DNA of 64,000 nucleotides from Microbacterium sp. SL75 (GTDB lineage: Bacteria; Actinomycetota; Actinomycetes; Actinomycetales; Microbacteriaceae), in NCBI RefSeq assembly GCF_026625865.1, contig NZ_CP113067.1:434001-498000 (forward strand), in the 5' to 3' direction. The notes under the pieces are model-generated. The model worked only from the letters and a program-made list of their open reading frames with translations, was not told where the DNA came from and searched no databases. The translations under genes were made by a program, and so were the position numbers. Shown one piece after another: positions 1 to 64,000 of the stretch (its first letter is position 1; each line of letters begins with the position of its first letter).

Positions 1-61
1 GCTGAGAGCCGTAGCAGGTGCCGCGGTCGAGGATCGCGAGCAGGCTCAGACGGACGGACAC
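1..61 (-). CDS. PadR-family transcriptional regulator, N-terminus only (cut by window start)
   Basis: Reading leftwards from a GTG at 61 gives 20 codons: VSVRLSLLAILDRGTCYGSQ. This is the characteristic start of PadR-family winged-helix regulators (LSLLAIL...G..YG.Q). A strong ribosome binding site, TGGAGG, lies 6 nt before the GTG. The rest of the gene is outside the window, so nothing can be said of its effector domain. It is divergent from cydABDC, so it is the natural candidate regulator of that operon. Family seen by motif; target inferred. Confidence 0.7.
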   Translation of the reverse strand, partial: MSVRLSLLAILDRGTCYGSQ

Positions 62-192
62 GGCGCCTCCAGGCGGGTCAGAAATGACTTGCCGAGTATA
101 TCGTTCGACGCCGAGGGATCCCCCGACGCGCCGAGGAGGCCCGGCGTAGCATGTGGTCTGACCACACATTCCGGTTCGATCGGAGGCTCCTC
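62..192. promoter_or_regulatory. Divergent padR/cydA control region with a palindrome at 152-166
   Basis: This 131-bp gap separates the PadR-type gene from cydA. It holds a perfect 7-bp inverted repeat, TGTGGTC-T-GACCACA (152-166), flanked by ATGT and ACAT. Many PadR operators are ATGT/ACAT palindromes, so this is a good candidate operator 27 bp before the cydA start. A TATACT hexamer (95-100, minus strand) could be the -10 of padR. The cydA ribosome binding site is CGGAGG, just before 193. Confidence 0.5.
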
Positions 193-1632
193 ATGGAGTG
201 GCTCGACCCCCTCGCCCTAGCCCGCTGGCAGTTCGGGTTGACGACGCTGTACCACTTCCTCTTCGTGCCTCTGACGCTCGGCATGTCGCTCATCGTGGCG
301 ATCTTCCAGACCGCCTGGTATCGGACGGGAGACGTGCGATGGCTTCACATCACGCGCTTCTTCGGGAAGATCTTCCTCATCAACTTCGCCATGGGCGTGG
401 TCACCGGAATCGTCCAGGAATTCCAGTTCGGAATGAACTGGTCGGCGTACTCGCGCTTCGTCGGCGACGTGTTCGGCGCCCCCCTCGCCTTCGAGGGACT
501 GCTCGCCTTCTTCCTCGAGGCGACCTTCATCGGCCTCTGGATCTTCGGCTGGGACAAGCTCCCGCGCCTCGCGCACCTCGCGAGCATCTGGATGGCGTCG
601 ATCGGCGCCACCCTGTCGGCCTACTTCATCATCGCCGCGAACGCCTTCATGCAGAACCCGGTCGGTTACCAGATGTCGGCCGACGGCCACCGCGCCGAGC
701 TCGTCGACTTCTGGGCGATGCTCACCAATCCCGTCGCCCTCGCGGCCTTCCCGCACACGATCTTCGCGGGCTGGATGTTCGCCGCGATGGTCGTCGTCGC
801 CGTCTCGGCCTGGCACATGGCACGCGGTCGCAACACCGACATGATGCGCAAGACGCTCCGCTTCGGCCTGTGGTCGACGCTGGTGTCTTTCGTGCTCGTC
901 GCGATCGTGGGCGACCAGCTGAGCCTGGTCATGGTCGCCACGCAGCCGATGAAGATGGCGGCGGCCGAGGCGACCTTCAACACCGTCTGCGGACAGGATG
1001 CCTCGTTCTCGATCTTCACGCTCGGAACGCCCGACGGAACGAGCGAGCTGTTCTCGATCCGCGTGCCCTTCCTGCTCAGCATCCTCTCCACGCACTCGCT
1101 CGACGGCTGCGTCGAGGGCATCAACGACCTGAACACCCTCTACAGCCAGCAGATGTTCCCCCAGTTCGCCGACCAGGTCGACGGCAACTTCGCCCCCGTG
1201 CTCTGGGTCACCTACTGGGCCTTCCGCTGGATGATCGCGCTCGGCGGGATCGCTGCGCTCGTCAGCGTCGCGGGCCTCTGGGTCACCCGCAAGAAGGCGA
1301 CCCGTCCGGTCGCCCCGTGGATGTGGCGCGTGGCGATCTGGGCCGCTCCCCTGCCGATGCTCGCGAGCCTCGTCGGCTGGATCTTCACCGAGATGGGCCG
1401 TCAGCCCTGGATCGTGTTCGGCCTCATGCTCACGCAGGACGGGGTCTCCCCCAGCGTCCCCGGCTGGAGCGTGCTCATCTCACTGATCGCCTTCACCCTC
1501 GTCTACGTCACCCTCGCCGTCGTGGAGTTCGGCCTCATCGTGAAGTTCGCGCAGAAGGGCCCCGAGCCCCTGCCCGATCCCGACGCCGAGCGAGACGACT
1601 CGGTCGAGAACACCCCGACCACGGTCTACTAG
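193..1632 (+). CDS. cydA: Cytochrome bd ubiquinol oxidase subunit I
   Basis: Haem-bearing subunit of the cytochrome bd terminal oxidase, a membrane quinol:O2 oxidoreductase with high oxygen affinity. It has 479 residues and multiple membrane helices. The N-terminus has the conserved RWQFG..TLYHFLFVPLT stretch with the proximal haem b595 ligand histidine (His21 here), and GRQPW occurs near residue 400. The quinol loop is the short type. An in-frame ATG at 151 exists, but the ATG at 193 has a GGAGG site 7 nt upstream and matches the family N-terminus. First gene of cydABDC, 9 bp from cydB. Confidence 0.96.
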   Translation: MEWLDPLALARWQFGLTTLYHFLFVPLTLGMSLIVAIFQTAWYRTGDVRWLHITRFFGKIFLINFAMGVVTGIVQEFQFGMNWSAYSRFVGDVFGAPLAFEGLLAFFLEATFIGLWIFGWDKLPRLAHLASIWMASIGATLSAYFIIAANAFMQNPVGYQMSADGHRAELVDFWAMLTNPVALAAFPHTIFAGWMFAAMVVVAVSAWHMARGRNTDMMRKTLRFGLWSTLVSFVLVAIVGDQLSLVMVATQPMKMAAAEATFNTVCGQDASFSIFTLGTPDGTSELFSIRVPFLLSILSTHSLDGCVEGINDLNTLYSQQMFPQFADQVDGNFAPVLWVTYWAFRWMIALGGIAALVSVAGLWVTRKKATRPVAPWMWRVAIWAAPLPMLASLVGWIFTEMGRQPWIVFGLMLTQDGVSPSVPGWSVLISLIAFTLVYVTLAVVEFGLIVKFAQKGPEPLPDPDAERDDSVENTPTTVY

Positions 1633-16149: not shown

Positions 16150-17553
16150 GTGCGCACCGCCATCGGCGGCACCGTCGTCGGCAACTTCATGGAGTGGTTC
16201 GACTTCGGCATCTACGGATACCTCGCCGTGACGCTCACCGCCGTCTTCGCCTCCGATCTGCCCGACCCGTGGGGTCTGCTGGTCACCCTCCTCGGATTCG
16301 CCATCTCCTTCCTCGTCCGCCCCTTCGGCGGCTTCGTCCTCGGCCCGCTCGGCGACCGCATCGGCCGACAGAAGGTGCTCTTCCTCACGATGGCGATGAT
16401 GGCCACGGCCACCGCCCTCATCGGCATCCTGCCGACCTCCGCTCAGATCGGACTCTGGGCCATCGTCCCGCTGTACCTGCTGAAGATGGTCCAAGGCTTC
16501 TCCACCGGCGGCGAGTACGCCGGTGCGACCACCTACGTATCGGAGTTCTCCCCCGACAAGCGCCGCGGCTTCTGGTCGTCGTGGCTCGACGTGGGCTCCT
16601 ACGTCGGCTTCGCCGCGGGCGCCGGCGCCGTGGCCATCACCACGGCGGTCGTCACGAGCGTCTCGGGCCCCGACGCGATGACCGAGTACGGCTGGCGCAT
16701 CCCGTTCCTTCTCGCGGTGCCCCTCGGTATCGTCGCGATCTGGTTCCGGCTCAAGATCCCCGAGACCCCCTCGTTCGAGCAGACGCACGCGGCCGAGGCC
16801 CAGAACGAGATCGACAAGGACGATCCGATGTCGCGACAGGGTCTCACCGGCATCGTGCGCCATCACTGGAAGCCACTGCTCATCGCGATCGCCCTGGTCG
16901 CCGCGACCAACACCGCCGGTTACGCGCTCACCAGCTACATGCCGGTGTACCTCGAGAAGGAGGTCGGCATCTCGAACGTCGGGTCGGCGGTCGCCACCGT
17001 CCCCGTCCTGCTGCTGATGTCCGCCATGCTCCCGATCTTCGGACGGCTGAGCGACAAGGTCGGCCGCAAGCCCATCTACGTCCTCGCGGCCGGCTCCGCT
17101 CTCGTGCTGCTCGTGCCGGCCTTCCTCATCATGCAGATCGGCGAGCTGTGGGCCGTGATGATCGCCCTTGTCCTCGCGGCGGTACCCGTGGCGTTCTACG
17201 CGAGCATCGCGGCATCCACTCTTCCCGCGCTCTTTCCCACCGCCTCGCGCTTCGGGGCGATGGCGATCGCCTACAACGTGTCGGTCTCGCTGTTCGGCGG
17301 CACGACCCCGCTGTTCAGCCAGGCGCTGATCGACTGGACGGGCAACACCCTCATGCCGGCGTTCTACATCATGTTCTTCGCCGCCATGGGTCTGGTCGCC
17401 CTCATCGCGATGCCCGAGACGGCCAAGCGGCCGCTGCTCGGCTCGGTCCCCACGGTCGAGACTCCCGGCGAGGCGAAGGCCCTGGTGGCGCGCCAGGACG
17501 ACGACCCGCTCATCGACACGTCCACCATGCCGCTCGAGCTGCACCGCCCCTAA
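16150..17553 (+). CDS. ProP-like MFS metabolite:H+ symporter (start uncertain)
   Basis: Twelve-helix major facilitator of the metabolite:H+ symporter class (ProP, ShiA, KgtP relatives). It has 467 residues from the GTG at 16150. Family marks are GNFMEWFDFGIYGYLA in helix 1, PLGDRIGRQKVL in loop 2-3 and GFSTGGEYAGATTYVSE in helix 4. Substrate cannot be read; osmolytes or carboxylates are typical. The upstream in-frame segment (LEVDDVIVVDKKRV) looks coding, but no ATG/GTG/TTG exists between 15987 and 16150. The true start may be a GAG at 16078 where a GTG would be expected. Monocistronic, convergent with the DUF853 gene. Confidence 0.85.
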   Translation: MRTAIGGTVVGNFMEWFDFGIYGYLAVTLTAVFASDLPDPWGLLVTLLGFAISFLVRPFGGFVLGPLGDRIGRQKVLFLTMAMMATATALIGILPTSAQIGLWAIVPLYLLKMVQGFSTGGEYAGATTYVSEFSPDKRRGFWSSWLDVGSYVGFAAGAGAVAITTAVVTSVSGPDAMTEYGWRIPFLLAVPLGIVAIWFRLKIPETPSFEQTHAAEAQNEIDKDDPMSRQGLTGIVRHHWKPLLIAIALVAATNTAGYALTSYMPVYLEKEVGISNVGSAVATVPVLLLMSAMLPIFGRLSDKVGRKPIYVLAAGSALVLLVPAFLIMQIGELWAVMIALVLAAVPVAFYASIAASTLPALFPTASRFGAMAIAYNVSVSLFGGTTPLFSQALIDWTGNTLMPAFYIMFFAAMGLVALIAMPETAKRPLLGSVPTVETPGEAKALVARQDDDPLIDTSTMPLELHRP

Positions 17554-17570
17554 GCCGCGACCACGACGTC

Positions 17571-17604
17571 GGGATCGGATGCCGGGTGACCGGCATCCGG
17601 TCCC
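17571..17604. terminator. Bidirectional terminator built on GGATGCC/GGCATCC
   Basis: A 15-bp stem with one wobble (17571-17585 against 17590-17604) and loop GTGA lies between the convergent MFS and DUF853 genes. The stem contains ggatgccgg and ccggcatcc. Confidence 0.7.
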
Positions 17605-17624
17605 GTCTCGTCGTCGATGGGGAG

Positions 17625-19601
17625 CTAGCGGCGCCGCCCGTTGCCGAACAGTCCGCGAATGACCCCGTTGACGATGCTCTTGGTCGCCCCGCGCCCGAGC
17701 AGGCCGTCCAGTCCGGCGGTCGGTGTGGCGGTGCGAGAGCGCGGAGCCGCGGTGCTCTTGAGGATCCGCTCGTACTCGCGCTGCGCCTTCTTCTGCGCTT
17801 CGGCGTTGGCCTTGTCGATCGCCGCTTTCTGCTTGGCGTACTCGGCGGCGTCCGCGGCCTCTCTCTTCGCCCGCTCCGCCGCGTCCTTCGCCTCGGCCGC
17901 CGCCTGCATGCGCGCACCGAGGATCTCGCGTGCCGACTCGCGATCGATCGGTGTTCCGTAGGCGGAGAAGAGGGGGGATGCCGACACCGCCGACGCCATC
18001 GCCTCGGCGGGGAGGGGCGACATCGACGCACGCGGCGCGAAGATCCGCGTCCACGCGACCGGGGTGGGCGCCCCGCGTTCGCTCATCACGGTGATGATCG
18101 CCTCGCCCGTCCCGAGCTCCTGAAGGACCCGCTCGAGGTCGTAACCCGAGTCGGGGTAGGTGCGCACAGAGGCTCGCAGGGCCGTGGCGTCGTCGGGAGT
18201 GAAAGCACGCAGAGCGTGCTGCACCCGCGAGCCGAGCTGCGCGAGCACGTCGCCGGGGACGTCCTTCGGCGTCTGAGTGACGAAGAAGACGCCGACGCCC
18301 TTCGAGCGGATCAGCCGCACGGTCTGGGTGATCGCCTCGAGAAACGCCTTCGACGCGTCCCGGAACAGCAGGTGCGCCTCGTCGAAGAAGAACACGAGCT
18401 TGGGCTTGTCGAGATCGCCCACCTCGGGGAGGGCCTCGTACAGCTCCGCGAGCAGGTACATGAGGAACGTCGAGTACAGCTGGGGCCGTGCCGCGACGTT
18501 GGGCACCTCGAGCAAGCTCACGATGCCCGCGCCCGCAGCATCCGTCCTCAAGAACACCGAGACGTCGAGCTCGGGCTCGCCGAAGAAGGTGTCGGCGCCG
18601 ACGGCGGTGAAAGCCACCAGCTCCCGGAGGATGACGCCCGCCGTCGCGGCCGAGAGCCCGCCGATGCCCTTCAGCTCCGGCTTGCCCTCTTCGCTCGTGA
18701 GGTAGGTCAGCACCGTGCGCAGGTCGGACAGGTCGACGAGCGCCAGTCCCTTCTCGTCGGCGTAGTGGAAGACGAGGCCGAGGCTCGACTCCTGGGTCGG
18801 GTTGAGACCGAGCACACGGCTGAGCAGCAGGGGGCCGAAACCCGACACCGTCGCTCGCACCGGAATGCCCGACCCCACGTCGTCGCCGAGGGCGAAGAAC
18901 TCCGTCGGGAACGATCGCGCCGACCAGGCCTGGCCGAGAGCGGCGGTGCGCGCGAGGAGCTTCTCGCTCGAGACGCCCTCGGCGGCCAAGCCCGACAGAT
19001 CGCCCTTGATGTCGGCGGCGAACACCGGCACGCCGTTCTCGGACAGCTGCTCCGCGAGCAGCTGCAGCGTGCGTGTCTTACCCGTTCCCGTCGCGCCGGC
19101 CACGAGACCGTGGCGGTTCGTCATCGCGAGGGGAATACGTACGGGTACGGATGCCACCGGTCCACCGTTCACGAGCACGCCCAGGTCGAGGGTTGCGCCG
19201 GTGGCGGCGTATCCGGCGGCGATCTCGGCGATCTGCGCGGCGGAGAGGGGGCCGTCGACGGACGAGACGGGGGCCGGGGCCGGGGCCGGGGGCGAGGCCG
19301 GGGCCGGGGCCGGGGCCGTGTCGGGGGGCGTCGACGTCGCGGCAGTGTCGGTCGACGCGGGGGGCGTCGCCGACCGCTCCTCCGGCGGCACGACCGACGC
19401 GGAGCCGGGCGCTGCCGCACCCGCCGCCCGAGCACGCGCCGCCGCAGCGGCCGCCTCCGCCGCGGCGAGGTCGGCGCGAGCGCGCGCCAGCCGGAGCTCG
19501 GCTTCGGCCGCGTCGGCCTCGGCGCGCAGACGCGCGACCTCGGCATCGGCCGCCGATCGATCTTCGACGGAAACGGAGGGCGCGTCGCCGGGCTCGCTCA
19601 T
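17625..19601 (-). CDS. DUF853 family HerA-like ATPase
   Basis: A 658-residue cytoplasmic P-loop ATPase of the DUF853 (HerA/FtsK-like helicase) family, biological role unsettled. The N-terminal 65 residues are an Ala/Glu/Arg-rich coiled coil, and 65-115 is a Pro/Ala/Thr linker with repeated APAP. The ATPase core has Walker A GATGTGKTRTL near residue 170 and Walker B LVFFFDEAHLLF near 405. The tail has an AKDAAERAKREAADAAEYAKQ coiled coil near 560-600. The start lies 7 nt after TAGGCT, whose TAG is also the stop codon of the PAP2 gene, so a leaderless promoter overlaps the upstream gene end. Confidence 0.88.
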   Translation of the reverse strand: MSEPGDAPSVSVEDRSAADAEVARLRAEADAAEAELRLARARADLAAAEAAAAAARARAAGAAAPGSASVVPPEERSATPPASTDTAATSTPPDTAPAPAPASPPAPAPAPVSSVDGPLSAAQIAEIAAGYAATGATLDLGVLVNGGPVASVPVRIPLAMTNRHGLVAGATGTGKTRTLQLLAEQLSENGVPVFAADIKGDLSGLAAEGVSSEKLLARTAALGQAWSARSFPTEFFALGDDVGSGIPVRATVSGFGPLLLSRVLGLNPTQESSLGLVFHYADEKGLALVDLSDLRTVLTYLTSEEGKPELKGIGGLSAATAGVILRELVAFTAVGADTFFGEPELDVSVFLRTDAAGAGIVSLLEVPNVAARPQLYSTFLMYLLAELYEALPEVGDLDKPKLVFFFDEAHLLFRDASKAFLEAITQTVRLIRSKGVGVFFVTQTPKDVPGDVLAQLGSRVQHALRAFTPDDATALRASVRTYPDSGYDLERVLQELGTGEAIITVMSERGAPTPVAWTRIFAPRASMSPLPAEAMASAVSASPLFSAYGTPIDRESAREILGARMQAAAEAKDAAERAKREAADAAEYAKQKAAIDKANAEAQKKAQREYERILKSTAAPRSRTATPTAGLDGLLGRGATKSIVNGVIRGLFGNGRRR

Positions 19602-19611
19602 GCGCGACAGC

Positions 19612-20310
19612 CTACGACTCGACCGATGCCCTGGCATCCGATTCGCGTGTCTTGCGAATCGCCAGTCGGTCTTCGTCGCGGGCGCGCAGACGCGAGAACG
19701 CCGCCGCCAGGACGAGGGCGGCACCGGCGCCGATGAGCGCTCCACCCGCGGTGTCCGAGAGCCAGTGCGCGTGCAGGTACGTGCGGCTGAACGCCATCAG
19801 CACCACCCACGCCACCCCCACAATCCGTACCCAGAACGCGGGAAAGAGCACGGCGGCGACGACCGCGATGGTCGCCGCGTTGGCCGTGTGCCCCGAGGGG
19901 AACGATCCGTAATCGCTGATGATGAGGATGTCTTCCGGTCGCGCGCGGCCGAACGTGTGCTTGACGACCTGCACGAGCAGAGCGCTGCCCACCGAGGCGG
20001 TCAGGAAGTACAGCGCCGACCATCGCCTACGCGAGAGGAAGAGTGCCAGAGCACCCAGGACCGGCACGATCACGACGGCGGTGAGATGACCCCCGACCGT
20101 GTCCATCACGATCGAGAAGATCAGCAGCGGCTGGGACGGCGACGACGCGAAGAGCTGGTTCCACCACACGTCGAGCGCGAACGGACTCGGTCCGCGGAAG
20201 AACACCCATGCGCCGAGCGCGCACGCGAGGGCGATGCACACCACGCCCACCGTCGCACGGAATCGCTGCGGGCGCGTGTTCAGCACGTCGTCGATCGCGG
20301 AGGCATCCAT
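19612..20310 (-). CDS. PAP2-family membrane phosphatase
   Basis: A 232-residue integral membrane phosphatase with about five helices. All three parts of the phosphatidic-acid-phosphatase motif are present: KHTFGRARP near 120, PSGHT near 140 and SRTYLHAHWLSD near 180. Such enzymes dephosphorylate lipid phosphates such as undecaprenyl pyrophosphate at the outer membrane face. The specific substrate cannot be read. Located 10 bp upstream of the DUF853 gene on the same strand. The tail is basic and cytoplasmic. Confidence 0.88.
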   Translation of the reverse strand: MDASAIDDVLNTRPQRFRATVGVVCIALACALGAWVFFRGPSPFALDVWWNQLFASSPSQPLLIFSIVMDTVGGHLTAVVIVPVLGALALFLSRRRWSALYFLTASVGSALLVQVVKHTFGRARPEDILIISDYGSFPSGHTANAATIAVVAAVLFPAFWVRIVGVAWVVLMAFSRTYLHAHWLSDTAGGALIGAGAALVLAAAFSRLRARDEDRLAIRKTRESDARASVES

Positions 20311-20347
20311 CGCCTCATGATGCCGCCTCGGCGGCGACGGGGGAATG

Positions 20348-20381
20348 GGTCGGTCCCGGGAGCGAACCCCCGGGACCGACC
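20348..20381 (-). terminator. Terminator downstream of the Bcr/CflA gene
   Basis: Perfect 13-bp stem (ggtcggtcccggg at 20348-20360 against 20369-20381) with an 8-nt loop, 39 bp after the stop of the minus-strand MFS gene. GC-rich without a long U-tract, as is common for this genome. Confidence 0.7.
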
Positions 20382-20419
20382 TGGTAATGTGCGCGCCGCC
20401 GACCGGCTGGCGAGGCTGG

Positions 20420-21757
20420 TCAGGGCGCGAGGCGCTCCACCGTGCGCGGACGCACGAGCAGCCACAGCGACAGCACGCCGATGACCGCGCAGCCGAGCAT
20501 GACCGAGGCCATGGTCGTCGCGGTGATTCCCGAACCGGTGGCGAGCAGACCGACCAGCGGCGAGATGATCCCGGCCACGCCGAAGTTCGCCGCACCGATG
20601 ATCGACTGCGCGGTTCCCGCGGCCTTGCCGTGGCGGTCGAGGGCGAGCACCTGGGCGCACGGGAACGTGAATCCGCACGCGGTCATGAAGAAGAACAGCG
20701 GCACGATCGTGCCCCACAGTCCGAGGCCCAGCTGGTCGGTCAGCACGATGGCACCGCCCGCAAGCACGAGCACCGCTGTCGAGACGGCCAGCACCCACTG
20801 CGGCCCGAACCGGGCGGCGAGGCGCGAGGCCACCTGCACGCCGACGACGACGCCGATGGAGTTCGCGGCGAACAGCACGCCGTAACCCTGCGCGCTGAAC
20901 TGGTAGGTCACCTGGAAGAGGAACGAGGATGCCGACAGGTACGAGAACAGCCCGCTGAAGGTCATCGCACCGATGATGAGCACCCCGATGAAGACGCGGT
21001 CGCGGAACACGCTCGCGTAGCGCTGCCAGACGGTCGTGGCACCGGGTCCGCCGCGGCGAGCCGGCGGAAGGGTCTCAGGTACGAACAGGATCGCCGAGAC
21101 GAGCATGACGGCGCCGTAGACGGCGAGGACGACGAAGATGCCGCGCCAGTTCATCACCAGCAGCAGAGCGGAGCCGGCGAGGGGCGCCAGCACGGGCGCG
21201 ACGCCCGAGACCATGGCCATGCGCGAGAGCATCACGACGAGCCGGCGACCGCCGAACAGGTCGCGGATGATGGCCGCGGCCACGACACCGCCTGCGGCGG
21301 CACCCGCACCCATGAGCACGCGCGCGATCGAGAGGGTCTCGAGCGTCGGCGCCGAGGCGGCGAAGATGCTCGCGGCCACATGCAGAGCGGTGACCGAGAG
21401 CAGGGGAAGGCGACGGCCGACCTTGTCGCTGAGCGGGCCCACGATGAGCTGGCCCAGCGCGAAGCCGATCATGGTGCCGGTGAGCGTGAGCTGGATCGCC
21501 GCCGCGGTCGTCTGGAAGTCGGCCTCAAGCACGGGGAACGCCGGCAGGTAGAGGTCGATCGTGAACGGGCCGAGGGCTGTGAGCGCGCCGAGCACCAGGA
21601 TGTACAGCAGGCGGCGGGAGGCGGGGATGGCGTCGCCCGGGTGGAGCACGATCGGGGCGGTGGCGGGGTTCTTGCCGATCGCGCGGATGGCGCCGGTGTT
21701 CGTCTGCGGCGAGCGGGGCGACGAGGGGATGACGGGGTGGGAGGCAGTATCGAGCAC
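20420..21757 (-). CDS. Bcr/CflA-type multidrug MFS exporter
   Basis: Twelve-helix drug:H+ antiporter of the Bcr/CflA group, 445 residues from the GTG at 21757. Signature pieces are the helix-1 sequence LGALTALGPFTIDLYLPAFP, GQLIVGPLSDKVGRR in loop 2-3 and RVLMGAGAAAGGVVAAAIIRD in helix 4. The GTG is preferred because the protein then starts near the family N-terminus. In-frame ATGs at 21847 and 21853 would add about 30 residues crossing a hairpin. Divergent from the DUF3105 gene. Expected substrates are antibiotics such as bicyclomycin or chloramphenicol, but these cannot be read from sequence. Confidence 0.88.
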   Translation of the reverse strand: MLDTASHPVIPSSPRSPQTNTGAIRAIGKNPATAPIVLHPGDAIPASRRLLYILVLGALTALGPFTIDLYLPAFPVLEADFQTTAAAIQLTLTGTMIGFALGQLIVGPLSDKVGRRLPLLSVTALHVAASIFAASAPTLETLSIARVLMGAGAAAGGVVAAAIIRDLFGGRRLVVMLSRMAMVSGVAPVLAPLAGSALLLVMNWRGIFVVLAVYGAVMLVSAILFVPETLPPARRGGPGATTVWQRYASVFRDRVFIGVLIIGAMTFSGLFSYLSASSFLFQVTYQFSAQGYGVLFAANSIGVVVGVQVASRLAARFGPQWVLAVSTAVLVLAGGAIVLTDQLGLGLWGTIVPLFFFMTACGFTFPCAQVLALDRHGKAAGTAQSIIGAANFGVAGIISPLVGLLATGSGITATTMASVMLGCAVIGVLSLWLLVRPRTVERLAP

Positions 21758-21786
21758 GCGTTTGATTTCGTTTCGCAACACGGACA

Positions 21787-21805
21787 GCCCGATGGAATCG
21801 GGCTG
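21787..21805 (-). promoter_or_regulatory. Leader hairpin before the Bcr/CflA start codon
   Basis: Perfect 8-bp stem agcccgat-GGA-atcgggct, 30 bp upstream of the GTG used for the exporter. It is either in the 5' leader or in the coding region, depending on which start is right. No U-tract follows. It could be a simple attenuator or ribosome-access element. Confidence 0.4.
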
Positions 21806-21989
21806 AGAAAAGAGGGGGGATCGTCGAACCTCGAATCGATTCGACATCGTCATACTACCGTGACCACCCGCACGCCACCATCCCGAGCTCGCGGGTTCCT
21901 CCCAGGCCATCGGCCCATTCACCCGCATAGGCTGGGGACGTCGGCGGCTGCCGATGTGTCCCGCCCCGAAGAGAGACAGAACACAGCGC

Positions 21990-22697
21990 ATGACCTCCCC
22001 CTCCGACAAGCGAGCCAGCGGCAACCCCGCCAAGCAGGCCCAGATCGACCTCACCGTCAAGCAGCAGCGTGAGCAGAAGCGTCAAGAGAAGCTGGCCGAG
22101 TACCAGAAGCAGGTCGCGAAGCGTAAGCGCGGCAAGCTCGTGTGGTGGGTCGTGGGTTCCACGGCCGCCGTCGCGGTGATCGGCCTTGTCGTGGCATCCT
22201 TCGCCTTCGCCCCCGCTCCCCCCACCAGCTACCAGGCGGGCAACAGCACCGGCCGCGAGATCAGCGGTGTGCAGACGTTCGAGAACCGCTCCGATCACGT
22301 GCAAGGTGCCGTGACCTACGAGCAGAACCCGCCCGCCGGTGGCCCGCACAACCCGATCTGGCTCAACTGCGGCATCTACACCGAGCCGCAGCAGAACGAG
22401 AACGCGGTGCACTCGATGGAGCACGGCGCCGTGTGGATCACCTACGACCCGGAGCGTGTCGACCAGGCCGGCATCGACGCCCTCAAGGCCGTCATGCCCT
22501 CGAGCTACGCCCTTCTCTCGCCCTACCCCGGCATGGACACCCCGGTCGCGGTCAGCGCGTGGAACCACCAGCTGAAGCTCGATGACCCGGCCGACCCGCG
22601 CATCGCAGAGTTCTTCACCGAGTTCTGGCGCAGCCAGAACGCCCCCGAGCCGAACGCCGCGTGCTCGGGAGCCATCGACGGTCCGGGCAAGGCCTGA
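21990..22697 (+). CDS. DUF3105 membrane-anchored protein
   Basis: A 235-residue protein: a charged, Lys/Gln/Glu-rich N-terminal coiled segment (about 10-50), one transmembrane helix (VWWVVGSTAAVAVIGLVVAS, about 50-70), then an extracytoplasmic DUF3105 domain. That domain carries conserved NCGIY, VHSMEHGAVWITY and the AWNHQL motif, with cysteine and histidine residues typical of the family. Function unknown; metal binding is plausible. A TAGGCT -10 lies about 60 bp upstream. It overlaps the DUF305 gene by one base (TGATG), so the two are coupled. Confidence 0.86.
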   Translation: MTSPSDKRASGNPAKQAQIDLTVKQQREQKRQEKLAEYQKQVAKRKRGKLVWWVVGSTAAVAVIGLVVASFAFAPAPPTSYQAGNSTGREISGVQTFENRSDHVQGAVTYEQNPPAGGPHNPIWLNCGIYTEPQQNENAVHSMEHGAVWITYDPERVDQAGIDALKAVMPSSYALLSPYPGMDTPVAVSAWNHQLKLDDPADPRIAEFFTEFWRSQNAPEPNAACSGAIDGPGKA

Positions 22698-23368
22698 TGA
22701 CCGACGACGCCCCGGTCGCTCGCCCCGCGCTCCGCTGGGTCGTCGTCGCCCTCGTCGCCGTCGCCGTGATCGCCGTCGCCTTCGCGGTCGGCCGCTTCAC
22801 CGCGTTCGGCGCGACGGCAGCGCCCGCGCACCCGGGCGAGAACTCGGCGGAGGCCGGTTTCGCGCGCGACATGCAGGTGCACCACACGCAGGCCGTGCTC
22901 ATGGCGATGGAGATCTACCGCAAGACCGACGACGACGAGCTGCGCACCCTCTCGTACGACATCGCCACCGCCCAGTCGGGTCAGCGCGGCGAGATGTACG
23001 GGTGGCTGGTGCAGTGGGGCCTGCCCCAGTCTTCGAGTCAGCCGCTGATGACGTGGATGGAGAAGTCGGGCGAACACAGCCACGGCGACACCGCCGCGCT
23101 CACGCAGGAGCAGTTGCTCGCCGAGATGGGCATGGCCACCGACGCCCAGCTCGACGAGCTGCGCAGCGACGAGGGGCGCCCGGCGGACTGTCTGTTCCTC
23201 GACCTGATGATCCGCCACCACGAGGGAGCGATCCCCATGGCGCAGGCCGTCATCGAGCTCGGCACCGATGCCCGCGTCAAGGAGGTCGCCGGTGCGATCG
23301 TGACAGGCCAGTCGGCCGAGCTCGACGCGATGCGCGACATCCAGTCGCGTCTCGCGTGCAGCGCCTGA
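22697..23368 (+). CDS. DUF305 (ferritin-like, metal-binding) exported protein
   Basis: A 223-residue protein with one N-terminal transmembrane helix (WVVVALVAVAVIAVAFAVG) and an extracytoplasmic DUF305 four-helix bundle. The duplicated motif M-HH is clear (MQVHHTQAVLMA near 58, MIRHHEGAIPMA near 175) with many methionines, which in this family is linked to copper binding (CopM-like). Translationally coupled to the DUF3105 gene, a pairing that suggests a joint envelope function. Specific role not shown by sequence. Confidence 0.86.
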   Translation: MTDDAPVARPALRWVVVALVAVAVIAVAFAVGRFTAFGATAAPAHPGENSAEAGFARDMQVHHTQAVLMAMEIYRKTDDDELRTLSYDIATAQSGQRGEMYGWLVQWGLPQSSSQPLMTWMEKSGEHSHGDTAALTQEQLLAEMGMATDAQLDELRSDEGRPADCLFLDLMIRHHEGAIPMAQAVIELGTDARVKEVAGAIVTGQSAELDAMRDIQSRLACSA

Positions 23369-23387
23369 CCCCCGCAGCCCCTCGCCC

Positions 23388-23887
23388 ACGTCCGCCCGCC
23401 GCACGGCATCCGCTCCCGCCCCTCACGCAGAAACGCGCTCGGCACGCAGAAACGCGCTCTCCTCGCGTTTCCGCGCGCGGATCGCGTTTATGCGTACGGA
23501 AGCGCGTTCATCCACCCCCGCGGTCGCCGTTCCCCCTCCGCGGTCGCGCGCCGGCCCGCCCGCCACGCCCCTCGCCCACGGCCGTCCGCCGCGCGGCATA
23601 CGCCCCCCACCCCTCACGCAGAAACGCGATCTGCACGCAGAAACGCGCGCTCCTCGCGTTTCCGCGTGTGGATCGCGTTTATGCGTACGGAAGTGCGTTC
23701 ATCCGCCCCCGCGGTCGCCGTGCCCCCTCCGCGGTCGCGCGCCGGCCCGCCCGCCACGCCCCTCGCCCACGCCCGTCCGCCGCACGGCATCCGCCCCCGC
23801 CGCCACGCAGAAACGCGCTTTGCACGCAGAAACGCGCTCTCCTCGCGTTTCCACGTGTGGATCGCGTTTATGCGTGGGTACCGGCGC
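23388..23887. repeat. Tandem array of about 190-bp units carrying palindromic elements A, B and C
   Basis: Three head-to-tail copies of a roughly 190-bp unit fill the gap between the DUF305 gene and the convergent sugar transporter; the third copy is cut short. Each holds a 71-bp element (A 23425-23495, B 23616-23686, C 23805-23875). An element is two direct copies of CGCAGAAACGCG about 19 bp apart, followed by two inverted copies (GCGTTTCCGCG and GCGTTTATGCG types). The inter-element DNA is also repeated and GC-rich. Open frames here are side effects of the repeats. Confidence 0.9.
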
Positions 23888-23907
23888 GCGGGCCGGGGAA
23901 CGACGAA

Positions 23908-23939
23908 GGGGCGCGACACCCCTCCGGATGCCGCGCCCC
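23908..23939 (-). terminator. Terminator of the sugar ABC operon
   Basis: An 8-bp stem (ggggcgcg at 23908 against cgcgcccc ending 23939) around a partly paired 16-nt centre, 17 bp after the stop of the last permease gene. Confidence 0.5.
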
Positions 23940-23955
23940 CTCGGTCGAGACGGGC

Positions 23956-24933
23956 TCAGCCCTTCGTGGCTCCGGCCAGCAGACCGCGCACGAAGAAGCG
24001 CTGCAGCAGGAAGAACACGATGAGCGGAACCAGGATCGAGATGAACGTTCCCGCGGACTGCAGGAACCACTGGTCGCCCCAGGTCCCCGACAACGAGTTC
24101 AACGATTGGGTCAGCGGCAACGAGGACGACGGTGCGAAGATCGTCGCCACGAGCAGGTCGTTCCACACCCAGATGAACTCGAGCACCGCGAACGAGGCGA
24201 GAGCGGGAGCGGCCAGCGGCAGGATCAGTCGGAAGAAGATCTGCCCGTGGCCGGCACCGTCCACGCGCGCCGCCTCGATGACCTCGGCGGGGATCTCGGC
24301 GATGAAGTTGTGCAGCAGGAAGATCGCCAGCGGCATCGCGAAGATCACGTGCGCGATCCACACGGTCGCGAAGCTGTGCTCCACGCCACGCAGGTCGAAG
24401 CCCGGGAAGATCGTGACCTCGTTGATGGTCAGTCCGCGCGAGAACAGGCTGAGCAGCGGCACGAGGGCCATCTGCAGCGGCACGATCTGCAGCGCGAAGA
24501 TGAAGATGAAGAAGAAGTTGCGTCCCTTGAAGTCGATCCACGCGAACGCATAGGCGATGAGCGAGGCGACGGCGAGGGCGAACAGCACCACCGGGATGGT
24601 GATCGCGAGCGAGTTGAGGAAGGACTGCGCCAACGTCAACGCGGTCCCGCCCGAGGTCAGCGCGAGGCGGTAGTTCTCCAGCGTGAACGACGGGTCGGTG
24701 AACACCGTCCACCACCCGGACGACTGGGTGTCGGAACCCGGTCGGAACGAGGTGATGAACAGACCGAACGTCGGAATCGTCCAGAAGAAGGCGATCACGA
24801 TGGCCGCGATCGTGGCGCCCTTCGACGTCAGGCGCTTGCGCGCCATGGCCTCGTGCTTACGCGTGTCGCGAGCGACCTGGCGTGCGGAGCGTGTGTCGGT
24901 GGTGGGTTCGATCACCACGGTCGAGGTGGTCAT
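23956..24933 (-). CDS. Sugar ABC transporter permease (MalG/AglG type)
   Basis: Second membrane subunit of a carbohydrate ABC importer, 325 residues with six helices after a 35-residue charged N-terminus. The EAA loop that contacts the ATPase is VIEAARVDGAGHGQIFFRLILPL near 220-242. The ATG overlaps the stop of the partner permease (ATGA). No ATPase gene is present, so a shared MsiK-type ATPase elsewhere must energise the importer (known for many actinobacterial sugar systems; inferred here). Confidence 0.91.
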   Translation of the reverse strand: MTTSTVVIEPTTDTRSARQVARDTRKHEAMARKRLTSKGATIAAIVIAFFWTIPTFGLFITSFRPGSDTQSSGWWTVFTDPSFTLENYRLALTSGGTALTLAQSFLNSLAITIPVVLFALAVASLIAYAFAWIDFKGRNFFFIFIFALQIVPLQMALVPLLSLFSRGLTINEVTIFPGFDLRGVEHSFATVWIAHVIFAMPLAIFLLHNFIAEIPAEVIEAARVDGAGHGQIFFRLILPLAAPALASFAVLEFIWVWNDLLVATIFAPSSSLPLTQSLNSLSGTWGDQWFLQSAGTFISILVPLIVFFLLQRFFVRGLLAGATKG

Positions 24934-26282
24934 CGCACTTCCCTCTGCTTCCGGATCTGGCGGACGTTGAAGATGATCAGCGGCAGCACGAAGATGAACA
25001 GCACCACGGCCAACGCCGCGGAGTGCCCGTAGCTCTGGAAACGCTGCTGCTGGTTGACCATCTCGAAGGCGAGCACCGTCGAGTCGTTTCGTCCGCCCGT
25101 CATGACGGCGACGATGTCGTAGATCTTCAGCGCGCCGATGGCGATCGTGGTGAGCACCACGATCAGCGAGGAGCGGATGCCGGGAACGGTGACGTTGATG
25201 AAACGCTCCCAGGCGCTGGCTCCGTCGAGTTCGGCCGCCTCGTTCTGCTCCGGCGGCACGGCCTTGATGGCAGCCGACAGGATGACCATCGCCAGCCCCG
25301 TCTGGCTCCAGATGAAGACGACGACGAGCAACAGCGTGTTGATCAACGGCGACGCCGCGAGCCACGAGACCGGTTGCCCGCCGAAGGCCGTGACCACCGC
25401 GTTCAGCACACCGATCTGGTCGCCCTGACGGAAGTCGTAGACGAACTTCCAGATGATGCCGGCGCCGACGAACGAGATCGCGAACGGCATGAAGATGAGC
25501 ACCTTCAGGTACTTCTCCCCCGCCGCGCGGTCGATGAAGACGGCGTACGCCAGACCGATGGCCGTGGCGATGGTCGGGGCCAGGAGCACCCAGATGAGCG
25601 TGTTAATCACCGACCAGAACCCCTCGGGGTTCGTGAAGGTCCAGATGTAGTTCTCGAGACCGACGAAGTTGTCACCGGTCTTGTCGAAGAACGACTGGAA
25701 GAGGGTGGTGATGGCCGGGTAGACGAGGCCGATCAGCAGGAGGATCGATGCGGGGGCCGCGAAGAGGATCAGCTGGAAGAGGTATCCCGCACCCTGGCGT
25801 GAGCGGTAGTCGGCGTAGAACAGGACCGCGCCGAGCAGGATCGCGATACCGAGGACGTAGACGACGGCGTTCTGGTACGGGCGCAGCAGCATGAAGGCCA
25901 GCACCGGGATGCCGAAGCACGCGATGAGCCGCAGCCAGAAGTAGCCCTTGCCGGAGCGCGGCGCGTACTCGATGAGGAGCAGCAGCAGTCCCACCACGGC
26001 ACCGAAAGCGACGACGACGAGCGGGATCTGGACGAGGGGGCTGAGTCCGCCGAGCCAGATGAAGAAGCTGTTCAGGCTGAAGCCCAGGGTGGTCGGCTTG
26101 GTCTCGGCGGGTGCCCGCGTGACCATGAAGAGGAAGAGCGCCACCGCCAGGATGAGCCCTACGAGGACCACGAGCAGCGTGGTCCGATTGCGTGCGCCGG
26201 AGCCGCGCGTGCGACGCTCGGCTCGTCCGCCCGGCGGAGGTGACGCCGTCGGCGCCTTCTCCGCGTTCTTGATATCGGTCAT
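24930..26282 (-). CDS. Sugar ABC transporter permease (MalF/AglF type) with extra N-terminal helices
   Basis: A 450-residue permease, longer than usual because four or five extra hydrophobic segments (about 35-170) precede the core permease domain (about 180-450). The EAA loop is NEAAELDGASAWERFINVTVP near 340. The start at 26282 has GGGAGGG 6 nt upstream. It is the second gene of binding protein-MalF-MalG, separated from the binding-protein gene by a hairpin. Substrate by analogy with AglE/MusE-type systems: alpha-glucosides such as maltose or trehalose (inference). Confidence 0.9.
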   Translation of the reverse strand: MTDIKNAEKAPTASPPPGGRAERRTRGSGARNRTTLLVVLVGLILAVALFLFMVTRAPAETKPTTLGFSLNSFFIWLGGLSPLVQIPLVVVAFGAVVGLLLLLIEYAPRSGKGYFWLRLIACFGIPVLAFMLLRPYQNAVVYVLGIAILLGAVLFYADYRSRQGAGYLFQLILFAAPASILLLIGLVYPAITTLFQSFFDKTGDNFVGLENYIWTFTNPEGFWSVINTLIWVLLAPTIATAIGLAYAVFIDRAAGEKYLKVLIFMPFAISFVGAGIIWKFVYDFRQGDQIGVLNAVVTAFGGQPVSWLAASPLINTLLLVVVFIWSQTGLAMVILSAAIKAVPPEQNEAAELDGASAWERFINVTVPGIRSSLIVVLTTIAIGALKIYDIVAVMTGGRNDSTVLAFEMVNQQQRFQSYGHSAALAVVLFIFVLPLIIFNVRQIRKQREVR

Positions 26283-26363
26283 GACGTCCCTCCCGAACAC
26301 GCCTTCGTGCTCATCAATGAGTGCCCGTGTGGTGCGTGCGGGCGGAATAGAAGTATGGACCCC

Positions 26364-26396
26364 GGATGGGCCACCCGCGTGGCGGGCGGCCCATCG
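26364..26396 (-). terminator. Intercistronic hairpin after the sugar-binding protein gene
   Basis: Stem gatgggcc/ggcccatc with an inner ccgc/gcgg stem and GTG loop lies in the 130-bp gap between the binding-protein stop and the first permease. Partial termination or RNA protection here would keep the binding protein in excess over the permeases. Confidence 0.5.
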
Positions 26397-26412
26397 GTGG
26401 TGCGGTAGTGCG

Positions 26413-27738
26413 TTAGTTGTTGTAACCGGTCTGGATGTCGCTCAGCACCTGGTCCGTCGGCGTACCGTCGATCCAGCTGACCATGCCCTTCCAGAACGAG
26501 CCCGAACCGACGGTGGCCGGCATGAGGTCCGACGCGTCGAAACGCAGCGTGGTGCTCGGGTCCTGCACGACCTTCATGGCCTCCTGCAGGAACTCGCTCG
26601 AAGCGAGCGAGGGGTCAGCGCCCTTGTTGGCCGAGATCACGCCGCCGAGCTTGACGCGGGCGTTGGCGAAATCGGGCGTCGACATGAACTCGGCGACCTT
26701 CTGGACGTTCGCGTCGTCGGAGAAGGTCGTGACGAACTCGCCGCCGCCCTCGACCGCGAGGTTGCCCTCGGTCACGCCGGGGAGCAGGAACGCGTAGACG
26801 TCACCGTCGGGAGCGACCGTCGGCGTCTGGCCGGCAGCGTTCTTGACCGTGAGGAAGTTCGACGACAGGAACGAGGCCTGGTGCGTCATCGGGCAGCTGC
26901 CGTCGGCGACCTTGGCGGCCACGTCGGCGAAGGCGACCGAGTTGATGCTCTTGACGTCACCGAAGCCGGCGTTGACGTACGACGGGTTCAGGAGGATCTT
27001 GCCGGTGGCCTCGAAGGCCTCCTTGATCGGGGCGTCGGTGAACTTGACCTCGTTCGCGACCCACTTGTCGTAGACGTCGGCGCCGGACTGGCGAAGGACC
27101 ATGTCCTCGATCCAGTCGGTTCCGGGCCACCCCGACGCATCGCCCGAGGCGAAGCCTGCGCACCAGGGGGCCGCGCCCGTCTTCTGCTGGATCGTCGCCG
27201 TGAGGGTCATGAGCTCGTCGAGGGTCTTGGGGACCTCGACGCCCCACTCCTTGAACTTCGCCGGCGAGTACCAGACGTAGCCCTTGAGGTTGGCGAGCAT
27301 CGGGGCGGCGTAGAAGGTGCCGTCCTCGCTGCCGTAGGACTTCCAGTCCTCGCCCCAGTACTGGTCGACGTTCGACGACACGGTGTCGGACGCCTTCTTC
27401 ACGTCGCCCGTGCCGATGAGGGTCTTGAGCAGACCCGGCTGGGGAACGATCGCGATGTCGGGGGCGTCGCCACCGGTCACCTTGGTGACGATGTTTCCCT
27501 CGAAGCTCTTGTCGCCGGTGTAGACGACCTTGATGCCGGTGTCCTTGGTGAACTGGTCGAACGACTGGTTCAGCAGGTCGGCCTCGCTACCGGTGATGCC
27601 ACCGGAGATGCGGACGGTCGTTTCTCCCGAAGCTCCGGAGCCGCCGCTGTCGCCCTCCGCGCATCCAGCGAGAGCGATCGCACCGACCGCCAACAGTCCG
27701 ACGGGCGCAAGCAGCCGATACCGCTGTGACATACCCAT
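26413..27738 (-). CDS. Sugar ABC transporter substrate-binding lipoprotein (AglE-like)
   Basis: Extracellular binding protein of 441 residues with a lipoprotein signal (lipobox ALAGC, Cys about 26) and the extracellular solute-binding family 1 fold. The segment PWCAGFASGDASGWPGTDW near 188 is characteristic of the AglE/MusE group of alpha-glucoside-binding proteins. The first ATG of MGMS is used because AGGAG lies 7 nt upstream. Divergent from a LacI-type regulator whose operators flank its promoter. The exact sugar is an inference. Confidence 0.9.
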   Translation of the reverse strand: MGMSQRYRLLAPVGLLAVGAIALAGCAEGDSGGSGASGETTVRISGGITGSEADLLNQSFDQFTKDTGIKVVYTGDKSFEGNIVTKVTGGDAPDIAIVPQPGLLKTLIGTGDVKKASDTVSSNVDQYWGEDWKSYGSEDGTFYAAPMLANLKGYVWYSPAKFKEWGVEVPKTLDELMTLTATIQQKTGAAPWCAGFASGDASGWPGTDWIEDMVLRQSGADVYDKWVANEVKFTDAPIKEAFEATGKILLNPSYVNAGFGDVKSINSVAFADVAAKVADGSCPMTHQASFLSSNFLTVKNAAGQTPTVAPDGDVYAFLLPGVTEGNLAVEGGGEFVTTFSDDANVQKVAEFMSTPDFANARVKLGGVISANKGADPSLASSEFLQEAMKVVQDPSTTLRFDASDLMPATVGSGSFWKGMVSWIDGTPTDQVLSDIQTGYNN

Positions 27739-28989: not shown

Positions 28990-29033
28990 AAAGACGGGAC
29001 CCCGGATGCCGTGGCATCCGGGGTCCCGTCTTT
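28990..29033. terminator. Strong bidirectional terminator (lacI / nucleotidase)
   Basis: A perfect 20-bp stem (28990-29009 against 29014-29033) with a 4-nt loop CGTG, beginning in AAA and ending in TTT so that it works on both strands. It contains the pair ggatgc/gcatcc next to the loop. It serves convergent lacI and the wall-anchored nuclease gene. Confidence 0.9.
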
Positions 29034-33849: not shown

Positions 33850-33919
33850 CGCGTCTCACAGAATCGAAGGTGACCTCACCCTCGGACGGCCGACGTCTCT
33901 CACCTCCCGGGTGGAACGA

Positions 33920-33954
33920 CGAAGGCCCGGATGCCATTGGCATCCGGGCCTTCG
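33920..33954 (-). terminator. rplJL terminator with GGATGCC/GGCATCC stem
   Basis: A perfect 16-bp stem around loop ATT (33920-33935 against 33939-33954), 31 bp after the rplL stop. The loop-proximal part is exactly ggatgcc/ggcatcc. Confidence 0.85.
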
Positions 33955-33985
33955 TGTATCGCGTTGAAGCGACCGCGAAGCGTGA

Positions 33986-35169: not shown

Positions 35170-35298
35170 ACCAGCCCTCCATCCCCGGACAACCCCGCGT
35201 CCACATCACGTGACGCGGACGAAAGCACATGTACGGCGATGTGCGTTCGACCACGTCGCGTGATTTCGCGAGCGAAGAGCGGGAGGACCGTCGCATGC

Positions 35299-36546: not shown

Positions 36547-36948
36547 TCAGGAGACGCGCGCCGCCGGCAGCATCGCCCGGGTCATGCGCACGATGCGCGA
36601 GGGCGTGCGCGCGCCGAGCCACACCGTGCACACGGGCGCCTCTCCGCAGGCCCACTCGGCGCACCACGCGTGGATCGCCGTCGCGAGCCTCTCGCCGCGC
36701 GGGCGCAACTCGCCGTCGATCGTGCGGTCGAGCCAGCTCACCCGCGCCGCCGGGGCGTCGAACGCCTCGATCTCGTCCGCGCCGCAGATCTCGACCAGCA
36801 CGGTCGCGTGCGCTCCGGGCGAGAGAGCCGCGGCGATCCGACGCATCTGGGGGGTGTTCCGCGCGTCGCCGCCGAGCAGCACCGCGCCTTCCAGGTCGCA
36901 CCAGCGACCGCCGTCGGGGCGACGCAGCGAGGGGTCAACCGAACTCAT
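36547..36948 (-). CDS. SIP-domain (siderophore-interacting protein C-terminal) protein
   Basis: A 133-residue protein matching only the NAD(P)H-binding SIP domain of siderophore-interacting proteins (GRWCDLEGAVLLGGDARNTPQMRRIAAAL, VLVEICGADEIEAF, WLDRTIDGE). Full-length SIPs also have a FAD-binding domain, absent here. The ATG lies 6 nt after a TAAGTT -10, so it is probably leaderless. A GTG two codons upstream is the alternative. An IdeR/DmdR-like iron box overlaps the promoter, which agrees with a role in ferric-siderophore handling. Confidence 0.78.
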   Translation of the reverse strand: MSSVDPSLRRPDGGRWCDLEGAVLLGGDARNTPQMRRIAAALSPGAHATVLVEICGADEIEAFDAPAARVSWLDRTIDGELRPRGERLATAIHAWCAEWACGEAPVCTVWLGARTPSRIVRMTRAMLPAARVS

Positions 36949-36954
36949 GCACAC

Positions 36955-36976
36955 AACTTAGGTCACCCTTACTTCA
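36955..36976 (-). promoter_or_regulatory. Leaderless promoter overlapped by an iron box
   Basis: AACTTA (36955-36960) is TAAGTT on the minus strand, 6 nt before the SIP ATG. TTAGGTCACCCTTACTTCA (36958-36976) agrees with the IdeR/DmdR consensus TTAGGTTAGGCTAACCTAA at 13 of 19 positions. Repressor binding would block the -10 when iron is plentiful. Confidence 0.5.
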
Positions 36977-37050
36977 CCCACAAGACCCCGGATGCCGACG
37001 CGCCGCTGCTCGCATGCGCTCCACGGGCGGGCGGGGTTAGGGTCGAAACC

Positions 37051-56443: not shown

Positions 56444-56489
56444 TTTACGACGACGGCGGCATCCCGCGGGATGCCGCCGTCGTCGTAAA
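56444..56489. terminator. 46-bp perfect palindrome, bidirectional terminator
   Basis: A completely symmetric 46-bp sequence begins TTTACGACGACGG and ends with its complement, with ggcatccc/gggatgcc at the centre. It lies 11 bp after the TPR gene stop and 5 bp from the stop of the convergent dehydrogenase gene. The TTT/AAA ends allow termination in both directions. Confidence 0.85.
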
Positions 56490-63197: not shown

Positions 63198-63288
63198 GGC
63201 GCGATGCTACGGACGCCGCGACAGAGCCCGCACTCTCCTCCATGTACAGTCGCAGGCAGCGTCGTATACGAGTCGTACAGGAGCCGCC
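63198..63288. promoter_or_regulatory. Divergent gabT/pucR control region
   Basis: ATGCTA (63204-63209) is TAGCAT on the minus strand, 6 nt from the gabT ATG. TGTAC (63243-63247) and GTACA (63275-63279) are inverted around a CGTATACG palindrome (63261-63268), a plausible operator. CAGGAG before the ATG at 63289 is the PucR ribosome binding site. Confidence 0.5.
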
Positions 63289-64000
63289 ATGGTCGACACC
63301 GCCGCCGCCCCGCCGAGCCTGCGGGCCCTTCTCTCTCGACGCGATCTGCGGTTGCGCCTCGTCACCGGTGAGGACGAGCTCGCACCCGGGAGCATCGACC
63401 GCCCGGTGCGGTGGGTGCACTCCAGCGATCTCGTCGATCCGACGCCGTTCCTCAGCGAGGGTCTCGTGTTGCTGACGACGGGGACGCAGTTCGTCGACAC
63501 GGCCGATTACCCGGCGTACGTGGGCCGCCTGCTCGCCCGCGGTGTACGGGCTCTGGGGTTCGGCACCGAGGTGGTGCGCGACGGCATCCCGGCGGGGCTG
63601 GCGGCGGCGTGCCTGTCCGCGGGCATGCCGTTGTTCGAGGTGCCCTACCGCACCCCCTTCATCGCCGTGGCCCGAGCCGGAGCCGAAGCCATCGCCGCCG
63701 ACGCCTACGCCCGGCGCAGTTGGTCGCTCGCCGCCCAGCGCGCCGTCTCGCTCGCCGCCCTCCGCCCCGACGGGCTCACCGCCACGCTGGCGGAGCTCTC
63801 GCGGCAACTCGGCTGCTGGGTCGCACTCTTCGACGCCGCGGGGGCCCTGCGCACCGCCCACCCCGCCGGATCCCTCGCCGCCCCGGTGATCGAGGCCGTG
63901 ACGGCCGAGGTGACCACGATGCTGCGCCGCGGCACGCGAGCGGCTTCCTCTCTCCGGGTCGCCGACACCCCGGTGAGCGTGCAGACCCTCGGCCGGGGCG
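63289..64000 (+). CDS. PucR-family transcriptional regulator, N-terminal 237 residues (cut by window end)
   Basis: The open frame from 63289 runs off the window without a stop. Residues 10-130 match the PucR N-terminal ligand-sensing domain (VRWVHSSDLVDPTPFLSEGLVLLTTGTQF, RGVRALGFGTEVVRDGIP, PLFEVPYRTPF). The DNA-binding helix-turn-helix expected at the C-terminus lies outside. PucR-type activators commonly control GABA, purine or proline catabolism. Its divergence from gabT makes it the likely regulator of the operon. Confidence 0.82.
   Translation, partial: MVDTAAAPPSLRALLSRRDLRLRLVTGEDELAPGSIDRPVRWVHSSDLVDPTPFLSEGLVLLTTGTQFVDTADYPAYVGRLLARGVRALGFGTEVVRDGIPAGLAAACLSAGMPLFEVPYRTPFIAVARAGAEAIAADAYARRSWSLAAQRAVSLAALRPDGLTATLAELSRQLGCWVALFDAAGALRTAHPAGSLAAPVIEAVTAEVTTMLRRGTRAASSLRVADTPVSVQTLGRG

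Follow-up and report, generated by a model that had tools for sequence, protein, structure and literature searches.

GGATGCCR, an over-represented word of Microbacterium chromosomes that resembles a DNA uptake sequence

Why does one heptamer recur so densely on both strands of a Microbacterium chromosome, and what could keep it there? The stretch that raises this question (G000:C1:434001-498000; hereafter the window, positions 1..64000, 64,000 bases in all) belongs to a one-contig genome of 3,436,786 bases (3.44 Mb), and an original prediction had singled out GGATGCC and its complement GGCATCC there as over-represented. Exact search returned 88 copies, 46 on the + strand and 42 on the - strand, distributed across the entire window, which is the very number that had been counted approximately by hand. 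The chance expectation of about 15 per 64 kb was also sound: 100 dinucleotide-preserving shuffles gave a mean of 14.1 (standard deviation 3.6, maximum 24), and an order-2 Markov model, under which GGATGCC was the top-scoring 7-mer of the window among those that are not AT-rich, gave 14.4. Genome-wide, GGATGCC was found 2,587 times on one strand and 2,566 times on the other (5,153 in total), a near-perfect strand symmetry, compared with 200 + 192 = 392 occurrences of the reversed word. The excess is confirmed as genuine and genome-wide; as shown below, it survived codon as well as dinucleotide expectation and relatives carry the word, the two points at which the prediction had said it could fail. 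The open literature that we searched yielded no match for Microbacteriaceae together with an overrepresented motif.

Codon use was analysed in a sample of 464 kb, made up of 20 stretches of 20 kb and the window, in which a simple codon-based script called 396 genes. The sample holds 690 GGATGCC sites, 563 of them genic and 127 intergenic (1.45 and 1.69 per kb, respectively). Synonymous-codon shuffling within genes, repeated 200 times, gave 177.6 ± 10.3 genic sites and never more than 208. It had been claimed that the word imposes GAT before GCC and GCA before TCC beyond codon preference, and both codons behaved in this way: GAT filled 223 of 296 xxG-Asp-GCC contexts, against 15.9-19.3% across the remaining three classes of context, and GCA filled 142 of 201 xxG-Ala-TCC contexts, against 4.5-5.6% in other contexts. 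Copies had further been described on both strands, in all frames and between genes. The strands and the intergenic copies (18 of the 88 in the window, by our own gene calls) stand; the statement on frames holds only loosely, because 68 of the 70 genic copies fall into three frame and orientation classes (25, 22 and 21) and the remaining classes together contain 2.

The word extends beyond its seventh base. The base 3' of GGATGCC was G at 500 sites, A at 148, C at 23 and T at 19, and C in this place stayed below codon expectation (20 vs 49.6). When the eighth base was a purine, GAT was used in 212 of 256 contexts, compared with 11 of 40 when it was a pyrimidine; in the other orientation GCA was used in 140 of 176 and 2 of 25 contexts, respectively. 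The complete word is eight bases long, GGATGCCR, and the two purine fractions mean that it already occupies 80-83% of the places that lie one synonymous change away from it. Between genes, GGATGCC reached 122 copies vs 16.7 expected, and its 21 one-off variants ranged from 0.36 to 1.27 of expectation. At third positions of codons the motif base was over-used in 11 of 13 tests; in the two exceptions (7 vs 6.4 of 7, and 166 vs 176 of 182) the motif base is near-fixed. All seven motif positions were favoured, each in at least one such test, which led us to reject an origin by one mutation route, for instance from GGACGCC to GGATGCC.

Could the excess follow from a bias in codons, codon pairs or mutation? 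Some baseline of this kind exists: the Gly-Ile string GGC ATC C is common, and in 297 genomes of the order, where other families have lower ratios, the highest ratio to the reversed control that we noticed in another family was still 6.6 (G212, 1,361 vs 206). The reversed control also inflates the excess, as in G070, where counts of 1,001 vs 129 genome-wide shrink to 18 vs 12.7 under the codon shuffle. Bias would not account for an excess that is intergenic as well as genic, that favours every position, that depends on an eighth base lying beyond a codon boundary and that is weak in phages of the genus, and we consider this explanation very improbable.

Word copies are maintained between species. 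All pairs of 24 named M. testaceum-group loci were compared, pairs that are not independent of one another, at positions encoding the same amino acid. GAT was kept in 2319 of 2798 cases inside words vs 2069 of 7748 elsewhere, and GCA in 2440 of 2970 vs 342 of 3619, a large contrast; GAC standing in the context of the word was kept in 170 of 258.

Neighbouring copies tend to face each other. Among intergenic pairs at most 30 bases apart the sample contained 16 inverted and 0 direct, the enrichment in inverted pairs that had been suggested as a check, and genic pairs at the same distance numbered 17 inverted and 10 direct. A further 80 named Microbacterium loci were reduced to the 76 with 12 kb or more; among these, intergenic close pairs were inverted in 32 cases and direct in 8. 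The original prediction had described at least four terminators in the window as built from such pairs, and the four hairpins that it located are present, with perfect stems of 16-20 pairs and shuffle z scores of -6.6 to -8.7:

17570..17605, no strand assigned: hairpin with a 16-pair stem formed by an inverted GGATGCC/GGCATCC pair, between two genes that converge on it, with ends at 17553 (+) and 17625 (-)
28994..29029, no strand assigned: hairpin with a 16-pair stem formed by an inverted pair, between two genes that converge on it, with ends at 28989 (+) and 29042 (-)
33919..33955, no strand assigned: hairpin with a 17-pair stem formed by an inverted pair, on the downstream side of a - strand gene whose end is at 33986
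56445..56488, no strand assigned: hairpin with a 20-pair stem in the order GGCATCC..GGATGCC, formed by an inverted pair, between two genes that converge on it, with ends at 56432 (+) and 56495 (-)

Their T tails are poor, and a consensus terminator scan over 17001-36999 returned 7 sites, with 7.4 expected, none of which coincides with the three hairpins in that range. The name terminator thus rests on the hairpin and its position, which suggest that these elements terminate transcription.

Chi words and FtsK-orienting polar sequences (KOPS) are likewise short, dense and lineage-specific, and Chi words change among bacteria. GGATGCCR might accordingly be a recombination word like Chi, read at double-strand breaks by an enzyme of AdnAB, AddAB or RecBCD type, with dialects that follow the enzyme; it is dense, lineage-specific, chromosomal and scarce in islands, and its dialects share a core. 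We nevertheless think this quite unlikely. With dnaA at 1,289,503 and the terminus assumed to lie opposite, 338 sites were oriented with replication and 352 against it (p 0.62), so the word shows no replication polarity; the palindromic dialect GGATCC of G213, G034 and G109 is ill-suited to a polar signal, and inverted pairs in hairpins would not be expected of one. The same orientation counts led us to reject strand-polar motifs of the Chi or KOPS type in general, and they disfavour the strand-polar form of a role in chromosome organisation, which had been raised as an alternative. The data are not accounted for by codon use, by one mutation route or by a strand-polar motif. A further possibility is that the word is bound by a nucleoid or chromosome-organising protein, or by another DNA-binding protein unrelated to uptake. 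Its presence genome-wide on both strands would suit such a role, as would its slightly greater regularity of spacing (coefficient of variation 1.01, the third lowest, vs 1.13 ± 0.11 for 42 control words of comparable copy number). The spacing effect is small, though, and binding of this kind predicts neither inverted hairpin pairs nor changes of dialect inside a genus; it seems to us a poor candidate.

GGATGCC outnumbered its reversed control in 148 of 150 genomes of the family, our own included, with a maximum of 7,364 vs 293 in G057. The two genomes without an excess (229 vs 245 and 223 vs 248) are both of the genus designated g52. In G051, a genome of this genus (loci L042-L045 and L067-L073), GGATGCC lay below codon expectation (12 vs 32.8), and the orthologue of a methyltransferase discussed below is missing, which makes this genome a natural negative control. 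Codon-normalised scans of 40 kb found no clear word in G405 and G154, two genomes of other families. Within the family, samples of 18-213 kb contained no clear word of the GGATGCC type in G014, G016, G017, G045, G050, G068, G070, G018 and G051, and none of that type in two small-genome genera.

GGATGCC was the top GGATNNN word in 70 of the 76 named Microbacterium loci; the exceptions were L184 and L185 (GGATGCG), L235 (GGATGCT), L202 and L222 (a weak word) and L223 (none). In codon-normalised scans, two genomes of the same genus had other words: G213 used GGATCC (278 vs 70) and held GGATGCC below expectation (23 vs 49), and G346 used GGATGCTG (63 vs 9), a word that lengthens there towards CGGATGCTGCG. 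Further dialects in such scans were GGATCCT in G004 (31 vs 4), GGATCC in G034 (55 vs 15), and GGATGCG in G100 (44 vs 11) and G049 (39 vs 11). The eighth position differs as well, admitting only G in G106 and any base in G057. Counted genome-wide, GGATCC reached 6,067 copies in G213, 5,698 in G034, 6,148 in G109 and 3,253 in G004, where a further 12 Microbacterium genomes had 519-1,632; GGATGCTG, the weakest dialect, reached 1,691 in G346, compared with 123-910 in the same 12. All clear dialects (GGATGCC, GGATCC, GGATCCT, GGATGCTG and GGATGCG) share the core GGAT.

We note three side observations on dialects. G126, of the same genus as G057, carries two dense words (6,046 GGATGCC and 3,772 GGATCC, where G057 has 968 GGATCC) and is possibly a dialect in transition. 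Words of the AGCGGAT type, with GGAT inside, are over-used in G008 (L095-L096; 15 vs 3.5) and G005 (L155; 18 vs 4.0). In G045 (L107-L108) the over-used word of this type is GAGCGGAT (10 vs 2.0).

The word is sparse in low-GC islands and on a plasmid and only weakly over-represented in phages of the genus. When four windows in or beside the rRNA stretch of L009 are omitted, 17 windows of 2 kb with less than 66% GC held 14 sites, and the other 211 held 673. A plasmid of M. amylolyticum carried 9 copies vs 9.8 expected, a host whose own word may differ. In seven Microbacterium phages (190.5 kb) GGATGCC occurred 112 times vs 53 under the order-2 Markov model, which gave 602 vs 93 for a host sample; in the context of the word these phages used GAT in 13 of 83 and GCA in 12 of 37 cases, whereas the 76 Microbacterium loci used GAT in 797 of 1047 and GCA in 659 of 846. 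As separate observations, positions 24000-28000 and 34000-36000 of our window, in 2-kb windows below 66% GC, contain the word rarely or not at all and may be recent imports, and the record of Microbacterium phage Min1 ends (L236:40945-44810) in annotated genes for PurL and an acyl-CoA desaturase that look host-derived; this end holds 1 copy vs 1.5, a stretch too short to judge.

What kind of word, then, is GGATGCCR? Of the known kinds of word, DNA uptake sequences match its traits best. Like the DNA uptake sequences (DUS) of Neisseriaceae and the uptake signal sequences (USS) of Pasteurellaceae, it is a short exact word in strong genome-wide excess, with thousands of copies on both strands, genic and intergenic; it forms hairpins from inverted intergenic pairs, shows a deficit in foreign DNA and has dialects among relatives around a conserved core, CTG in DUS and USS and GGAT here. 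The available portion of PMC3630211 describes DUS dialects with a core and inverted-pair hairpins, and that of PMC7371117 uses the distribution of dialects to find integrative elements in Neisseriaceae. Unlike DUS and USS, the word occurs in a Gram-positive actinobacterium, in a user genome that has no PilM-type pilus, and some of its dialects are palindromic (GGATCC). By contrast with Chi and KOPS, it combines the lack of strand polarity with palindromic dialects and hairpin pairs. By analogy, and with a confidence that stops a little short of even, we propose that GGATGCCR is the self-recognition word of this chromosome, which would act like a DNA uptake sequence and be driven by uptake or recombination. 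The original prediction had drawn the same likeness; excess beyond codons, symmetry, inverted pairs, dialects, island deficit and com genes strengthen it, whereas word-dependent uptake stays an analogy.

The gene content is compatible with natural transformation: ComEC, ComEA and a Tad-type cluster are present. The comEA gene of this genome encodes SLBB and HHH domains and lies in a row with comEC and with genes that, from the starts of their proteins, we take to be leuS, holA, rpsT, lepA and hemW. The small Tad-type cluster comprises a T2SSE ATPase, T2SSF, DUF4244 and a borderline TadE, beside a topoisomerase gene. Of the com and pil genes that had been suggested as a check, the com genes were thus found, and the type IVa pilus marker PilM was not. 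Two genes proved uninformative as correlates of the word, ComEC (80 of 80 genomes) and the T2SSE ATPase (32 of 32). Natural transformation has been published for two Microbacteriaceae, as the accessible part of PMC11577799 reports.

Several points weigh against an uptake word. ComEC does not discriminate, since it is also present in genomes without a clear word (G051 and G121), and several genera have no clear word in the codon-normalised scan although all carry ComEC. PilM, the marker of the type IVa pilus whose minor pilin would read the word in a DUS or USS system, was found in 40 of 80 genomes and is absent from this genome, from G106 and from the strong user G057, so that no ComP-type receptor is to be expected, and we rejected a type IVa pilus as the driver, although a different reader may act. 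According to the same portion of PMC11577799, the plasmid DNA accepted by the transformable Microbacteriaceae had been propagated in E. coli, which makes a strict word unnecessary in those species; the two small-genome genera without GGATGCC may or may not be those of that paper. Finally, phages of the genus keep a weak excess (94 vs 62 by codon shuffle).

Under the uptake proposal, a DNA-binding part of the natural-transformation route would prefer fragments bearing the word, with ComEA/ComEC and the small Tad-type pilus as candidate readers; in a competent user strain, fragments bearing GGATGCCG would be favoured over otherwise identical ones without it. Word-bearing fragments from relatives would be taken up and recombined more often, so that alleles creating the word would spread. 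Over time the word would fill most of the synonymous and intergenic free places on both strands, with islands and mobile DNA lagging, and inverted pairs would end as hairpins between genes. A shift in the preference of the reader would shift the word of the species and leave dialects with a GGAT core. We infer that the step of recognition lies in uptake or recombination, and likewise the candidates for the protein that reads the word. That this is an independently evolved GGAT-core code for uptake (or recombination) of self DNA in a Gram-positive actinobacterial family, with a chromosome almost saturated in the word, dialects swapped in some species and a reader other than a type IVa minor pilin, we advance only tentatively, as possible rather than probable; examples of such a reader would be ComEA, a pseudopilin of Tad type or a protein that recognises a methyl mark. 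If true, the GGAT code would stand as a barrier to gene exchange between species. The requirement for a short uptake word is called unique to Neisseria and Pasteurellaceae in the available portion of PMC3630211; a third, unrelated lineage, Gram-positive and without a PilM-type pilus in the studied genome, would mean that such codes arise repeatedly. It would also suggest a simple means of improving laboratory DNA transfer into these bacteria, and a single genus with GGATGCC, GGATCC or GGATGCTG species would provide natural comparisons for finding the reader protein.

The main rival lead is an orphan methyltransferase, encoded outside the window:

G000:C1:841915-842859 (L116:6912-7859): predicted orphan beta-class adenine methyltransferase, 315 aa, PF01555

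As proposed for the cyanobacterial highly iterated palindrome HIP1, a conserved orphan N6-adenine methyltransferase would mark GGAT words, for strand discrimination, cell-cycle control or self-DNA recognition. The likeness to HIP1 and the alternate highly iterated palindromes lies in a genome-wide excess, in replacement by another word in some genomes and in the existence of a methyltransferase candidate. Actinobacteria are not known to have the mismatch repair proteins that the published HIP mechanism requires. The candidate, by its sequence of the beta-class adenine type and resembling RsrI and CcrM, first looked decisive: in a set of 27 genomes, PF01555 matches above 140 bits occurred in all 25 regarded as users and in neither of the 2 from g52. 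An orthologue is present in 135 of 150 Microbacteriaceae genomes, and no restriction gene was recognised by eye in the listed neighbourhoods of eight of its loci. N6-methyladenine at GGATCC has been reported in an Arthrobacter (PMC5356067), and HIP1 dialects accompany methyltransferases (available part of PMC4390886). If methylation and uptake were joined, the word would be an uptake signal in methylated form, like that reported for Campylobacter, which takes up methylated DNA according to the accessible text of PMC8468864.

Wider comparisons did not sustain the correlation, and we rejected this gene as the decisive correlate. Unlike HIP1, the GGAT word is non-palindromic in most species and the methyltransferase does not track it, though another enzyme may. 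Among the 15 family genomes without an orthologue, which include G051, a GGAT word is kept in G136 and G100 and more weakly in G049 and G119; of seven orthologue-less genomes of high GC that were sampled, G070, G018 and G051 had no GGAT word and the other four had one. Conversely, G014, G017, G045 and G068 have an orthologue and no clear word, and L223 has one without GGATGCC. In species whose word has changed, columns invariant among users changed in the methyltransferase and in an LplA-like neighbour at 4 of 130 vs 9 of 200 (G213) and 2 of 130 vs 5 of 200 (L223), so that the enzyme has diverged no more than its neighbour. The methylation alternative raised by the original prediction has thereby gained a family-wide candidate enzyme and lost the expected match between enzyme and word, and we judge it unlikely as the explanation of the excess. 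C5 methyltransferases bore no relation to the word (13 of 27 genomes), and among 461 matching records of plasmid-borne relatives of the orphan enzyme none reached at least 60% identity. Its nearest relatives are in M. testaceum strains, with 86-93% amino-acid identity, and in several Microbacterium its gene overlaps the LplA-like gene.

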